From a bacterium (GTDB taxonomy: Bacteria; Patescibacteriota; Saccharimonadia; Saccharimonadales; UBA4665): a stretch of DNA of 64,000 nt. This document shows, in pieces, positions 47,263 to 53,590 of this stretch; the first letter of the stretch is position 1; each line of letters starts with the position of its first letter. The notes beneath the pieces are model-generated. The model saw nothing but the letters and a program-made list of their open reading frames with translations. It was not told the origin of the DNA and made no database searches. A program made the translations under genes and the position numbers. The stretch covers positions 1 through 64,000 of the forward strand of contig JAKBVU010000002.1 of the NCBI GenBank assembly GCA_021841155.1, in the 5' to 3' direction.

Positions 47263-48180
47263 CTAATTTTTATTATTTTGTAACTCTTCTCGCTGTTTTT
47301 CAAGTTGACGCCTTAAAACATACATTTGATGTCGACCACCAATCCAAAACGTAATAAAAATTAACGGTACTAAAATAATAATTGGCCACCAAATGATTTG
47401 TGGTTTTTGATTTGAAACTAATTGACTTTGATTAGTCGATTTTTTTTGATTTAAATTAATAACAGCTCCGTTAACTACAGCTACAACTTCCAAAAAAGCT
47501 TGAGTATGATTAGAGTCGGTAGCTCTAACAACAACATTATAAATTCCTGCTTTTGAATAAACATGATTAACGCTGAACTGCCCGGCAAACTTTTCTGACA
47601 ATAATTCGGCTGGAGAACCATCACCCCAATCAATACTGACAGCATAGGGTCCGACACCACCATTAAGATTAAATGGCCAAGTTAAAGTTGAACCAGGGTT
47701 AGAACCTCTTTCAGCATCATTACTAGTTAAACTAACTACTGAACCAAATTTAGCTAGTTGAATATTATTATAATTAACAATCACACTATTGGAATCTGGA
47801 CCAGATTCATCTAAATTATTATAATCTATAGCGACTAAATCGTTTTGTCCGGAAAATAAATCAACTGGTATGTTATAACTACCATTTTGGCAATTAATAG
47901 CACCAATAAAAACATTATTTGAAAAAATTTTAATTAATAAATTATTTGGACATAATCCATTGACATTAACTGGCATGTTAGTAAAACTAGTTCCAGTAAC
48001 AGGAGTAGCTATTGTTGCTCCTTGTGAAGGTGGAGGACTAGGAATCGTTCCTTGTAGACCAATTGATCCATTTGATGTTTGATGAGCCGGTATAGTTAAA
48101 GCCCTAACTTGATATAAAGACAAAAAAACAAATCCTAATATTAAAACAAAAAAAATTAAACTAATTTTAAAATTTAACAT
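47263..48180 (-). CDS. Membrane-anchored PKD-domain surface protein
   Basis: 305 residues: signal peptide, a first beta domain (VNGLCPNNLLIKIFSN to NIPVDLFSGQNDLVAIDYNN), a PKD domain (GGVGPYAVSIDWGDGSPAELL, VNHVYSKAGIYNVVVRATDS), then one membrane segment (about 263-283) and a short coiled tail (RRQLEKQREELQNNKN) in the cytoplasm. Last gene of the surface-protein locus, before mnmA. TATACT at 48193-48188 lies 7 nt before ATG. Confidence 0.8.
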   Translation of the reverse strand: MLNFKISLIFFVLILGFVFLSLYQVRALTIPAHQTSNGSIGLQGTIPSPPPSQGATIATPVTGTSFTNMPVNVNGLCPNNLLIKIFSNNVFIGAINCQNGSYNIPVDLFSGQNDLVAIDYNNLDESGPDSNSVIVNYNNIQLAKFGSVVSLTSNDAERGSNPGSTLTWPFNLNGGVGPYAVSIDWGDGSPAELLSEKFAGQFSVNHVYSKAGIYNVVVRATDSNHTQAFLEVVAVVNGAVINLNQKKSTNQSQLVSNQKPQIIWWPIIILVPLIFITFWIGGRHQMYVLRRQLEKQREELQNNKN

Positions 48181-48220: not shown

Positions 48221-49228
48221 CTATTGACGCCTAGACTGTCTAATCACTCGTTCTTTATATGCGTTTAATATTTTCGGAAAACCAAATATAAAAAATAGAA
48301 CCAGGATAATAAAGATAATAATTATCATGATTAAAGTTAACGGAATAACATAAAAAGTTGTTGAAGCCGATAAAGTTTGGCCAGAAGAACCATAACCAAA
48401 ATTACCTTCAACTGTATAAATACCAAATGAACTTACTTTTTTTAAAGGAATAAAAAATCTTCGGATACTATTAGGTAAAACATTGCCGGGAGGAGTGACA
48501 TTATTAACATTATAAACTGATATAATTTTATTAGAACTAGTTTTTAAAAGTACTTTTCCGAATGGAGCAACTTGAATATTACCTTCATTCTGAAATCTAA
48601 CCACAGCATTAATATGCTGATTCGATGTAAAAAAATTACTTGGTGTACCATTACTAACATCAAAACTAGCAATCGATAATTGTTGTTTGATTTTTCCAGG
48701 AACAGTTAATAGAATAATAGATCCAACTGATCCAGATAAACTAACAGTAGTATTTTTACCACCTATGCTAGCTGGGCCAAATCTAACTACTCCATAATAA
48801 CCACCACCTGGAGTATTGCTTGGAATTTTTAAAGTAATTGGTATTTCTTTTTGCTGACCTGCTTGTAAGGTAAAGTTAGGAATTGGTACAGCAAATTTTT
48901 TTAATCCATGTTTTTCATGAATATTTTTACCAATTAAAATTGATGGTTGACCTGTTTCATTAGAATTAGCTACAAAGTCATTCACTACACCTGATAAGGT
49001 TTCAGGCACTGAAGTAATATTGGTCACATACATATCAATAACTTGAGATTGACCAGCTTTAATAGTCACATCACTTCTTAAAGGAGAAACCTGAACACCA
49101 TCAGCCGAAGAAGCTGCACTAGATATAGTAAAATTTGCCAAACTAAAACCACTAATTAAAAAAATTGCCAATAATAAAATTAGCCAATTAAAATATTGTT
49201 TGATCTTTAAAGTTGTTATCCTTATCAC
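48221..49228 (-). CDS. DUF916-like surface protein with C-terminal membrane anchor and basic tail
   Basis: From GTG 49228 the product is 335 residues. Signal peptide (MIRITTLKIKQYFNW), a first beta-sandwich with the pattern IKAGQSQVIDMYVTNITSVP, VNDFVANSNETGQPS, PNFTLQAGQQKEIPITLKIP, GGYYGVVRF, a second one (NEGNIQVAPFGKVLLK, GIYTVEGNFGYGSS), then a membrane segment and an Arg-rich tail (KERVIRQSRRQ). This is the DUF916-DUF3324-TM-basic-tail plan of the WxL (csc) locus membrane partner in Firmicutes. GTG 49228 is preferred to ATG 49288, which lies inside the upstream gene; a GATAAT box sits 7 nt before it. Confidence 0.75.
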   Translation of the reverse strand: MIRITTLKIKQYFNWLILLLAIFLISGFSLANFTISSAASSADGVQVSPLRSDVTIKAGQSQVIDMYVTNITSVPETLSGVVNDFVANSNETGQPSILIGKNIHEKHGLKKFAVPIPNFTLQAGQQKEIPITLKIPSNTPGGGYYGVVRFGPASIGGKNTTVSLSGSVGSIILLTVPGKIKQQLSIASFDVSNGTPSNFFTSNQHINAVVRFQNEGNIQVAPFGKVLLKTSSNKIISVYNVNNVTPPGNVLPNSIRRFFIPLKKVSSFGIYTVEGNFGYGSSGQTLSASTTFYVIPLTLIMIIIIFIILVLFFIFGFPKILNAYKERVIRQSRRQ

Positions 49229-49269
49229 AATTATTATTATCTTAACAAAAGATAGATAATTTACAAAAT

Positions 49270-50343
49270 TTAAAAATTCGCTATGCAAACATAATTAACG
49301 GTTGTGACATAGACACCAGGTGCCTGATTTTGAGCCACATTGACTAAATAACTAACTGTATATAATCGATAATTTTCAGGCTGATTAGATCCAGCAATAT
49401 TAGAATCATTTTGAAAAGCATAAAAATTTGGTTCATCATAATTTAAAAAGGGTTGACCATGTCCTGGACCAGTTGGATTTTGACCGACAGTCGGTGAAAT
49501 GTTAGCCACTAAATTTAAGCCAAACTGTGAAACTCCTGGTCTAGATACACTAGCTGGATATAAATTCGGAATTTGATTAATACCTGAAGTTAGTCCTTGA
49601 CCATAAGTTGAAATAGTATAACCATTTTGACCATTAGTCCCAACCAGTAATTGAGAAGTAGCTGTTACTGAGGTTTGAGGTGAAAAAGTACCAAAATTAA
49701 TATTATGTCCTGAACTATCCTGACAATTTAAATGACTAATTTGAACTGCACTACAAAAATATATAAAGGGTGGAACTTCAGCATTAACAGCTAATTGATT
49801 ATTTAAAGCATAGGCTAAACCACCATGATTAATGACAGTAGTAGTAGACGGTGTCGAACTTGAAAAAGTTTCAATCCTGACATATTCCGTACCTTCAGCT
49901 GAAGCGTTAGTAATATTATTAAACGTATAACTAACAGGTCCTGGTGAAGTTGAACTAGGACTACGACTCATAACGATTAAATTTTGAGAGGTGGCCGGCA
50001 ATAAACTAAAGTTTGTTTGTCCAGTTTGAGCAACTAAACTTGCAGTTGACACATTAATACCCGTTGGAACTGTACACACATCGTTAAATAATGGTGAGTT
50101 TGAGCAAAATTGAAATTCAATTGAACCGACATTACTTGAAGACGTTAAATTAAAACCAATTTGAAATGTCACGTTGGTAGCTGAAGTTTGACTAGAAGAT
50201 AGTTTAATATATCGATCATTAATCTTAGCACCATAAACCGTTGCAAAACCTAAGTTATAAATCATGACACTAATAAAGACAGTCAAAACATAAAATATCA
50301 ATAAAAAAAGTGACTGTTTATGAAATAAACTAGTTAAATTCAT
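49270..50343 (-). CDS. Secreted beta-protein, paralog 1 of the surface locus
   Basis: 357 residues with signal peptide (about 1-35). The C-terminal half is shared with the next two genes: NINFGTFSPQTSVTATSQLL, GYTISTYGQG, SVSRPGVSQFGLNLVANISP, and the ending LYTVSYLVNVAQNQAPGVYV. The N-terminal half has two disulfide-capable Cys and matches paralog 2 (EFQFCSNSPLFNDVCTVPTG). Probably assembles at the cell surface. Starts 23 bp after the stop of paralog 2. Confidence 0.75.
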   Translation of the reverse strand: MNLTSLFHKQSLFLLIFYVLTVFISVMIYNLGFATVYGAKINDRYIKLSSSQTSATNVTFQIGFNLTSSSNVGSIEFQFCSNSPLFNDVCTVPTGINVSTASLVAQTGQTNFSLLPATSQNLIVMSRSPSSTSPGPVSYTFNNITNASAEGTEYVRIETFSSSTPSTTTVINHGGLAYALNNQLAVNAEVPPFIYFCSAVQISHLNCQDSSGHNINFGTFSPQTSVTATSQLLVGTNGQNGYTISTYGQGLTSGINQIPNLYPASVSRPGVSQFGLNLVANISPTVGQNPTGPGHGQPFLNYDEPNFYAFQNDSNIAGSNQPENYRLYTVSYLVNVAQNQAPGVYVTTVNYVCIANF

Positions 50344-50366
50344 TCATAATTGCCTAAATACCTACT

Positions 50367-51656
50367 TTAAAAAGTACCAGTAGCAATTAAATCCATATTA
50401 GCCGTATAAATACCAGCTGGCGTAGTTAAAGAAGCGGTAGCTGCAAAAGTATATGCACTGTCAACTCGATAAAGAGGTGAAGATGTTGAAGCCACAGTAT
50501 CACCATAAGTTGAATCAACATTAGTCGCATTCATACCATAATAAACATCGCTAGGAGTAGTCGCACCCTGTAAAGGAGTAGTATCGCTAGTTGACGAACC
50601 ACCCGTAAAAGTATAATTACTTGAACTGTAATACGTCGAAGCTGGGGTTAAAGATCCAACACCATTAACATCATCAACACTTGGACCAGTCGCCATACCA
50701 AAATCAGCTGTACCGGCTACAATAGCTGCCGCAGTTGAACCAATTGCAGGGATAGCACAAGTCGTACCACCATTAGCGCTTAAACCACCACAGCCAGTAC
50801 TATTACGCATAGATATAACAGCACCACTAGTGGCGTTAGTTGATAATTGAGAATAAACCGTTCCACTATCTACTTGAGTTTGGTCTAAGATCGGTGTTGG
50901 GCTACCATGACCAAGAGTAAGAGCCGGTGAAACGTTGGCATTAGGATCAGAACAATCATGTGTAGTTGTCCAACTACTGGGAGCATCACCCGAAACACAG
51001 AAACTTATTGTTTCTTGAACACGAGCCGTAATTGATATAATATTGTTGGTTGATAAAGCAATACCACCATAATCTAAGTAATCACCTGGTGAAGTAGCAC
51101 TAGAATAAGTACCATAAGTAGTGTTAGCAAAAGTATAGATACGAGCATAAAAAGCACCTAAAGTTGACGGATTGGTTACACCTGCGATAGTAAAGCTTTG
51201 AGCACCAGCTGCCGCGGCAGTAGCATCATAGGCCGCAAACTGTGAAGCACTTCCCATGGTTGCACCAGCACTATTAGTTCCACCCACAGTCCAACCACTC
51301 GATCCAATACCACCAGTCACCGTAGAAGAAACCGTAACACCTGTAACACTAAAACCGGTTGGTGCTGTACAAGTATCAGCAATAATTGGACTATTAGAAC
51401 AAAAATCAATCACAACACTTTCAGCCGCTTGAGTAGTTGTAAAACCAACTTTATAAGAAACATTCGTACCACTACCAACACCAGTTGAAATTGTACCAGC
51501 TGAAACACCAGAATCACTCATAGTAATGCTTCTACTAGCCATCTGAGCCGCTAAAACCGGTTGACTACCTAGAAGTGGCGTTAATAATGCTAAGATAAAA
51601 GCAATTACAAAAGAAGTATAAAAAAATTTCTTAATTCTTTTTATACTAGCTAACAT
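50367..51656 (-). CDS. Secreted beta-protein, paralog 2 (likely most expressed)
   Basis: 429 residues with signal peptide ending near AQMASRS. Its N-terminal half matches paralog 1 (VIDFCSNSPIIADTCTAPTG) and its ending YTFAATASLTTPAGIYTANM matches both others. Very rich in Ala, Thr, Ser and Gly. It has the best ribosome binding site of the locus (AGGAG, 5 nt before ATG) and a somewhat different base composition, as expected for an abundant surface protein. S-layer-like or pilus-like function is speculation. Confidence 0.75.
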   Translation of the reverse strand: MLASIKRIKKFFYTSFVIAFILALLTPLLGSQPVLAAQMASRSITMSDSGVSAGTISTGVGSGTNVSYKVGFTTTQAAESVVIDFCSNSPIIADTCTAPTGFSVTGVTVSSTVTGGIGSSGWTVGGTNSAGATMGSASQFAAYDATAAAAGAQSFTIAGVTNPSTLGAFYARIYTFANTTYGTYSSATSPGDYLDYGGIALSTNNIISITARVQETISFCVSGDAPSSWTTTHDCSDPNANVSPALTLGHGSPTPILDQTQVDSGTVYSQLSTNATSGAVISMRNSTGCGGLSANGGTTCAIPAIGSTAAAIVAGTADFGMATGPSVDDVNGVGSLTPASTYYSSSNYTFTGGSSTSDTTPLQGATTPSDVYYGMNATNVDSTYGDTVASTSSPLYRVDSAYTFAATASLTTPAGIYTANMDLIATGTF

Positions 51657-51743
51657 CTTTTCTCCTATATTTTTGATTTTTATTTTTTAATACTTATATC
51701 AAAGTATCATTTTTTTTATAAAAAATAAAGAACTTATCCACAA

Positions 51744-52487
51744 CTAATAAGTCGAGGTAGCTATTAAATCATCATTAAATGTATAGACACCTCCTGGTGT
51801 AGTGTGTGAAATATTAAAAATATAAGAAATAGTATAGAGTGTTTGACCACTACTTTGATCAGAGTATGCAATCGTTGAGTTGGGTTGATACATAAAAAGA
51901 TTAGGCGAATCATAATTACTAGAAACTTGACCATAACTAAAAGCACTACTTGGCAATTGACTAGGATTAGCCCCAAAACTAATTGGTGATGTATTAGCCA
52001 CTAAGTTCATACCGAATTGCTCTAAACCGGGTTGAGCAGTAGTTGGTGAAGTCAATGGTGTTAAAATAGCTGAGTTGTTAGACGGTGGCGGAGAAACTGT
52101 TTCAACTTGATATCCACTAGCTAAATAACTTGAAACACTGAACTGAGCCGTAGCCGTAGCTGTTGATTTAGTACTTAAAGTACCTAGATTAACACTTGTA
52201 TTATTAACATCGATAGAAATAAACGGTGAGCGATTAGTATTAAAACCTGCTTGAGCTTGATAATTAGAGCTTTTAGTATTACCAACGGCTATTTCTCCAA
52301 TAGAAGTTTTTGCGCAATAACTAGCCGAACATTGATTTAGATTACCACCAGCTCCAAAAAAAACATTATGTATTTGATAATTACTAGATGAAGCTGATTC
52401 AGCTTGAACTAAATTTGGTATCAAAAAAAATAATAGAGCAATAATTAAACAACTCAAAAAAACAAAAAAATTATTTTTTATAAACAT
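51744..52487 (-). CDS. Secreted beta-protein, paralog 3
   Basis: 247 residues with signal peptide (about 1-29). An N-terminal segment (SASSSNYQIHNVFFGAGG, CAKTSIGEIAVGNTKSSNYQ) resembles a family of bacterial surface proteins annotated with this repeat. The C-terminal half is the shared module: VNLGTLSTKSTATATAQFSV, AQPGLEQFGMNLVANTSP and the ending GGVYTFNDDLIATSTY. Lacks the CSNSP half. Divergent from the next gene, with TATAAT boxes between them. Confidence 0.75.
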   Translation of the reverse strand: MFIKNNFFVFLSCLIIALLFFLIPNLVQAESASSSNYQIHNVFFGAGGNLNQCSASYCAKTSIGEIAVGNTKSSNYQAQAGFNTNRSPFISIDVNNTSVNLGTLSTKSTATATAQFSVSSYLASGYQVETVSPPPSNNSAILTPLTSPTTAQPGLEQFGMNLVANTSPISFGANPSQLPSSAFSYGQVSSNYDSPNLFMYQPNSTIAYSDQSSGQTLYTISYIFNISHTTPGGVYTFNDDLIATSTY

Positions 52488-52555: not shown

Positions 52556-53586
52556 ATGCCAGATAATGAAACAAAACCAGAAGAAATCGATTTAGAATCC
52601 AATAGTTCAAGTCTTGAAGATAATGTTATCGATGCTACGGGCGGTAATGGTTTAGAAAGTTCAAGTCTTGAAAATAACACCAACCAAAACTCTGAAACCA
52701 ATGATCAATCAAAAACTTCTTCAACGTTAAATTCCCAAAATAAACTAAAATTAAAAGACAAATTAGCCAAATTTAATATTTACCTAATATTATTCGGGTT
52801 AATAGTCGTTTTAACTATTGTGGTAGTTGTAATTACATATTTACAAAGCCAGACTCCTATCAACAATTCAACCAGTCTAAAAAATCAAAATCTAACTCAA
52901 AATAGTCTCAACCAATTGGCTGCTAATGATTCAACTATTGGAGCTCCTAAGCAAAACTTAAATGTTGAGGCTAACGCTGTTTTTGCTGGTCGAGTTTTAA
53001 TCAGTAATGGTCTTCAAGTAGCCGGAGGTGAACAAATTAACGGTGGACTTGGTTTAACGAGCTTAACTGTTAAAGGCACTGGTAATTTTCAACAATTAAA
53101 TAATAGTGGTAATTTATCAGTAACTGGCAATACATCTTTACAAGGTTCAACAACTATTTCAGCTAGCTTACAAGTTAATGGTAACGCTAATTTTAACGGT
53201 AATGTTTCTTCTCCTCAAATAACCACCAATTCTTTACAACTAAGTGGCAATCTTAATCTCTCACATCATATCAATGTTATTGGACCTTCACCGAGTTCCA
53301 CTACTCTTAATGCTATTGGTGCTGGTGGTACGACTACAGTCAACGGTACTGATACAGCTGGTAATATTAATATTAATACAGGCACAAATCCAAGTGCGGG
53401 TTGCTTAATTACAGTGAATTTTAATCTGCCCTACAGTTCTACACCGTATATTGTTGTCTCGCCAATTGGATTAGCGAGTGGTTCAATTCATTACTACTTG
53501 GAACGTAATCAGACATCTTTTAATATCTGTTCCGGTTCAACACCACCTAGTCAAGCAAATATTAGTTTTGATTATTTTATTGTCGG

Positions 53587-53590
<4 letters not shown>
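52556..53590 (+). CDS. Membrane-anchored surface protein with beta-helix-like repeats
   Basis: 344 residues: acidic cytoplasmic N-terminus (~70 residues), one membrane segment (about 77-98), then extracellular repeats such as GRVLISNGLQVAGGEQINGG, LTVKGTGNFQQLNNSGNLSV, TGNTSLQGSTTISASLQVNG, NANFNGNVSSPQI that suggest a beta-helix stalk like phage tail-fibre stems. The C-terminal globular domain (ITVNFNLPYSSTPYIVVSPI) may be a tip. Opposite strand to the surface locus, convergent with atpC (4-bp overlap). Confidence 0.7.

Follow-up and report, generated by a model that had tools for sequence, protein, structure and literature searches.

At the locus studied here, four co-directional ORFs lie on the minus strand of the window (the whole stretch of 64,000 nucleotides that was analysed), at or near the positions proposed in a first-pass annotation, which had described them as a WxL/csc-like surface locus of a CPR genome. 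Its relatives show the genome to be Saccharibacterial, in agreement with the CPR assignment, and, judged from the sequence, these genes make up a Saccharibacterial Pam pilus cluster. The four ORFs stand as delimited; the unit is larger, however, and also includes the PKD protein that was said to follow and, usually, a divergently transcribed gene on the other side. The features are as follows, with scores from NCBIfam release 20.0 and its curated cut-offs (NF058579, 240 bits; NF058581, 55 bits; NF058578, 300 bits).

52556-53590, plus strand: divergently transcribed membrane protein gene, adjoining PamT on the opposite strand in 45/51 loci
51744-52487, minus strand: PamT, 247 aa (NF058579, 299.8 bits, cut-off 240), with a signal peptide, a PamT-specific N-terminal domain and a pilin C-terminal module
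51747-51791, minus strand: terminal strand motif G(-15)xY(-13)...Y(-1) of PamT
50367-51656, minus strand: pilB, a divergent Pam pilin, 429 aa (NF058581, 31.9 bits, below the cut-off of 55)
50370-50414, minus strand: terminal strand motif of the 429-aa pilin pilB, GIYTANMDLIATGTF
49270-50343, minus strand: pilC, a Pam pilin with two beta-sandwich domains, 357 aa (NF058581, 147.4 bits, cut-off 55)
49273-49317, minus strand: terminal strand motif of the 357-aa pilin pilC, GVYVTTVNYVCIANF
48221-49228, minus strand: WxLIP relative of the DUF916-DUF3324 type, 335 aa (hhalign, fold and Pfam family matches)
48221-49288, minus strand: longest form of the WxLIP-like ORF, with a TTG start
48725-48772, minus strand: candidate donor hairpin of the WxLIP-like protein, residues 153-168, a low-confidence loop and then an alternating V-x-L-x-A/G-x-V strand
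48227-48340, minus strand: C-terminal helix of the WxLIP-like protein, residues 297-334, membrane span and basic tail (AlphaFold2 model)
47263-48180, minus strand: PamR, a PKD-type, RbmA-like membrane protein and the last gene of the cluster (NF058578, 381.8 bits, cut-off 300)

The locus belongs to an existing family, Pam, a type of surface pilus of ultrasmall parasitic bacteria that received its name recently, and the additions made here are the link to WxL-interacting proteins (WxLIPs) and a subunit rule that extends across the phylum. Since no publication on Pam pili was found in the literature searched, the label "pilus" is borrowed from the NCBIfam naming. The families with adjacent NCBIfam numbers were considered as further Pam families and rejected, NF058580 being a lipase and NF058577 a ferredoxin. 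Sequence searches of the PDB returned nothing useful for any protein of the cluster, PADLOC found nothing, PHROGs gave just weak matches to the neighbouring gene, and a scan for promoters and terminators yielded no excess over shuffled sequences. The GTG at 49228 is the probable start codon of the WxLIP-like ORF, being the one that orthologs, including the closest, point to. The product of the divergent gene at 52556-53590 crosses the membrane once and combines an extended hydrophilic N-terminal part with a repetitive stalk, which is possibly a beta-solenoid, and a conserved C-terminal head; it resembles a tail-fibre-like surface protein, is a near-constant companion of the Pam cluster, and may form a second surface fibre.

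Regarding the subunits, three secreted paralogs with a common C-terminal module had been recognized in the first reading, together with an N-terminal half shared by two of them, and hhalign comparisons of the family alignments bear out both observations (C-terminal module: pilC/PamT, E 4e-38; pilC/pilB, 3e-24; PamT/pilB, 6e-15; N-terminal half of pilB and pilC: E 2.5e-38). The N-terminal and C-terminal halves of the pilins are mutually dissimilar in profile comparison, and the pilin C-terminal domain of PamT by itself scored 149.6 bits against NF058581 (cut-off 55). The motif QFGxNLVANxSP, which had been ascribed to all three paralogs, is literally present in two, whereas the 429-aa pilB carries a diverged ADFGM version. 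PamT and the two pilins have N-terminal hydrophobic signal segments, and no anchor of their own, sortase motif or C-terminal membrane span was found in these three proteins. A search of the whole genome placed the pilin module at just three sites, all of which are in the Pam cluster. The AlphaFold2 model of pilC (pLDDT 92, pTM 0.51) is confident for the individual domains, and its fold matches in the PDB were generic Ig-like proteins only, with TM below 0.3. Each domain of pilC (49270-50343) contains two cysteines, 80/90 and 197/207, that show almost no variation or none among 52 relatives, which makes disulfides in the Pam subunits probable.

The order of the genes was compared across 66 loci, named almost wholly as Saccharibacteria or unclassified bacterium MAGs, and runs from the divergent gene through PamT, the pilins and the WxLIP-like gene to PamR. 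The series from PamT to PamR is uninterrupted in 49 of the 51 loci that hold PamT, the WxLIP-like gene and PamR, and the pilin, the WxLIP-like gene and PamR are consecutive in 58/66 loci; the recurrence of this order is far beyond chance. PamT is the first gene of the cluster in the relatives. The tandem pilins between PamT and PamR number from one to six and are of comparable length, pilB being the gene with the most variable copy number among relatives and pilC the pilin that adjoins the WxLIP-like gene, and some loci hold an additional pair of pilin and WxLIP-like gene. In the interval between PamT and PamR, 49/51 loci contain no extra conserved gene that might encode an usher. PamR exceeded its cut-off in 57 of the 195 genomes sampled from the class. 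The initial scan of genomes was made with the WxLIP-like alignment, that of the pilins being too diverse.

A second Pam-like locus was also noted in relatives (L065:5747-10008, with similar loci in L066, L067, L069 and L071; two genomes of the same genus are among them), in which a pair of tandem WxLIP-like genes comes after a protein with the PamT-type N-terminal domain; L065 additionally encodes, ahead of the tandem pair, a secreted protein that has diverged but bears the Pam terminal motif. A second PamR paralog occurs approximately 5 kb past the cluster in L037, L038, L040, L041, L047 and L055.

The membrane partner, which had been likened to DUF916 proteins, is a true relative of the WxLIPs on the basis of both profile and fold. 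It comprises a signal peptide, two Ig-like domains, a C-terminal TM helix, which is present in 71/72 members of the family, and a basic tail with a mean charge of +7.4. Against nine WxLIPs from Enterococcus, Melissococcus and Lactiplantibacillus plasmids, the family alignment reached an hhalign probability of 99% and E 2e-18 over 226 columns across both domains; by domain, the first matched at E 7e-14 and the second, alone, weakly (probability 30%). The Pfam model WxLIP_PGBD (DUF916) matched 53/61 family members at E<=0.01 (best E 3e-10), the protein of the window scoring 20 bits and thus lying under the cut-off of 27.3, and there was no match to Pfam DUF3324 (HBD). No NCBIfam model recognises the gene, and a search for plasmid relatives of the protein found none.

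The AlphaFold2 model of the partner (pLDDT 88.7, pTM 0.77) found the Enterococcus WxLIPs 9i25, the best match, and 9i1y at the top of its PDB fold matches (E 8e-12), with both domains included in the resemblance, followed by, among others, the usher-pathway chaperones CfaA, CsuC and Caf1M (TMt about 0.42-0.53). A match to pilus chaperones only, which had been raised as the outcome that would speak against the WxLIP assignment, was thus not obtained. The TM-scores of 0.4-0.5 indicate a family resemblance, not a superposition. Pfam PapD had no match at E<=0.01 in the WxLIP-like family, and R51, considered as an equivalent of PapD Arg8, was rejected, Arg occurring at this position in just 38/61 members. 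Kinship with WxLIPs in a membrane protein encoded beside the pilins makes a role as a pilus assembly chaperone or anchor probable.

Nearly all pilins share a conserved C-terminal strand, G(-15)-x-Y(-13)...F/Y(-1). When pilins of 200 aa or more are considered, the last residue is Phe or Tyr in 188/190, as against 8/325 other long ORFs, and among the pilins with this ending Tyr -13 is universal and Gly -15 nearly so. Within Saccharibacteria, a protein with the motif is encoded directly upstream of 67/69 WxLIP-like genes. An independent test used Patescibacteria from other classes, with 40 loci that surround WxLIP-like genes, and here 49 of the 59 WxLIP-like genes have directly upstream of them a protein that ends in an aromatic residue and carries Tyr -13; several of the ten exceptions have the ending displaced by one or two residues, or a final Leu. 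Motif ORFs on these stretches amount to 58/163 near the WxLIP-like genes and 2/114 far from them (Fisher p 2e-13). The order pilin-WxLIP, pilin-WxLIP is repeated in about ten loci outside the class, which suggests cognate pairs. WxLIP-like proteins were found in 125/286 genomes sampled phylum-wide, and, of 41 genomes outside the class with both a PamT-family match and a WxLIP-like gene, 34 have the two no more than 6 kb apart. ORFs of approximately 800 to 1,500 aa with the Pam-type terminal motif, several of which are truncated where the available stretch ends, were also observed near WxLIP-like genes outside the class (L157, L158, L165, L166, L173, L174 and L179), and these may encode giant adhesins.

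In WxLIPs, the strand of a flexible hairpin has been predicted to complete the sandwich of the WxL domain (PMC10599100). At the equivalent site, the WxLIP-like protein has a low-confidence loop (pLDDT about 63-67) and then a conserved V-x-L-x-A-x-V strand, in which V162 is retained in 57/61 members, L164 in 60/61, A/G166 in 54/61 and V168 in 40/61 (V, L or I in 55/61). The combination of a hairpin strand with a fixed C-terminal strand in the subunit is reminiscent of how pilins are recognised in chaperone-usher systems. We lean towards the reading that the WxLIP-like protein acts from the membrane as a chaperone-like partner and would lend a strand to each pilin.

From these data, we infer the following course of assembly. 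PamT and the two pilins would be exported by Sec, and the WxLIP-like protein would be held in the membrane with its two Ig-like domains outside, where it would most likely catch each subunit by strand complementation between the C-terminal strand of the subunit and the alternating strand of its own hairpin. It might then hand the subunit to the growing fibre or hold the base, in either case without an usher. PamT is probably the tip subunit; the pilins would form the shaft, and PamR may serve as the base or as a cross-link. Saccharibacteria live on other bacteria, and their attachment is only partly understood; the Pam fibre may serve contact with the host bacterium.

The WxLIP-like protein may instead be a permanent anchor of the base subunit or of a patch of subunits, with a fibre that self-assembles, and not a cycling chaperone. 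This is a possible but somewhat unlikely alternative: the TM helix and basic tail, conserved in 71/72 members, accord with it, as does the proposal that WxL proteins are retained at the cell surface by the WxLIPs, its nearest relatives (PMC10599100), but the subunit-WxLIP pair is repeated in many loci outside the class, which would be needless with one anchor per fibre. It also appears improbable that the subunits do not polymerise and that the WxLIP-like protein instead displays them as individual adhesins in a csc-like surface complex, as the first-pass annotation suggested. The csc-like layout noted in the first-pass annotation holds, since subunit genes stand directly upstream of the WxLIP-like gene as they do in csc loci, and outside the class there are subunits longer than 1,000 aa, a length unusual for pilins; on the other hand, PamT, the pilin module and PamR are named as pilus proteins by the NCBIfam curators, and between PamT and PamR stands a tandem series of one to six pilins that are alike in size. 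A true csc locus, in which the paralogs would be WxL domains that have diverged, is very improbable and was rejected: the partner is homologous to WxLIPs, and the last strand of the Pam pilins shares Tyr -13 and an aromatic residue at -7 with the second WxL motif of fifteen Firmicute WxL proteins (counting the final Pro of the WxL domain as -1), but all comparisons remained at an hhalign probability of <=5% with whole families and <=2.4% by domain, Pfam WxL had no match in the pilin or PamT families, and the likeness of the last strands is suggestive at most because GxYxxxL is frequent in the last strands of Ig-like domains. The WxL reference set consisted of database sequences from Firmicute plasmid loci. 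By profile comparison, the proteins encoded beside the WxLIP-like gene are thus named Pam pilus proteins and not WxL proteins.

The placement of the Pam membrane partner in the WxLIP family provides a concrete hypothesis for pilus assembly, and the C-terminal rule a simple marker for subunits missed by sequence search across Patescibacteria. As a tentative generalization of the strand-lending reading, Patescibacteria as a whole may possess an usher-less system in which a WxLIP-family membrane chaperone is encoded beside each secreted beta-sandwich subunit and recognises its C-terminal G-x-Y-x11-F/Y. Such a system might, with the same reservation, export and assemble many surface proteins, Pam pili being one branch and the WxL loci of Firmicutes related to it; if true, it would join WxL systems and chaperone-usher pili mechanistically.

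Among known systems, the type IV pili of Saccharibacteria are likewise surface fibres of the same organisms; however, no prepilin-type signature was seen in the Pam subunits and the families are unrelated. In the csc loci of Firmicutes as in the Pam locus, subunit genes lie directly upstream of the partner, which has two Ig-like domains and a TM helix and is homologous between the two systems, but the Pam subunits are not WxL proteins, the second domain of the partner is strongly diverged, and no LPXTG protein was found. Chaperone-usher pili (CfaA, CsuC and Caf1M) resemble the Pam system in the two-domain chaperone fold, the flexible hairpin with an alternating strand, and subunits with a conserved Gly and an aromatic residue in the C-terminal strand, whereas the Pam partner is membrane-anchored, has no Pfam PapD match and does not conserve an Arg8-like residue, and no usher was identified among the genes at the Pam locus. 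In comparison with the Pam pilus of CPR bacteria, the 429-aa pilin of the window falls under the cut-off and the WxLIP-like gene is without an NCBIfam model, whereas PamT, PamR and one of the pilins score above the curated thresholds and belong to the same families.
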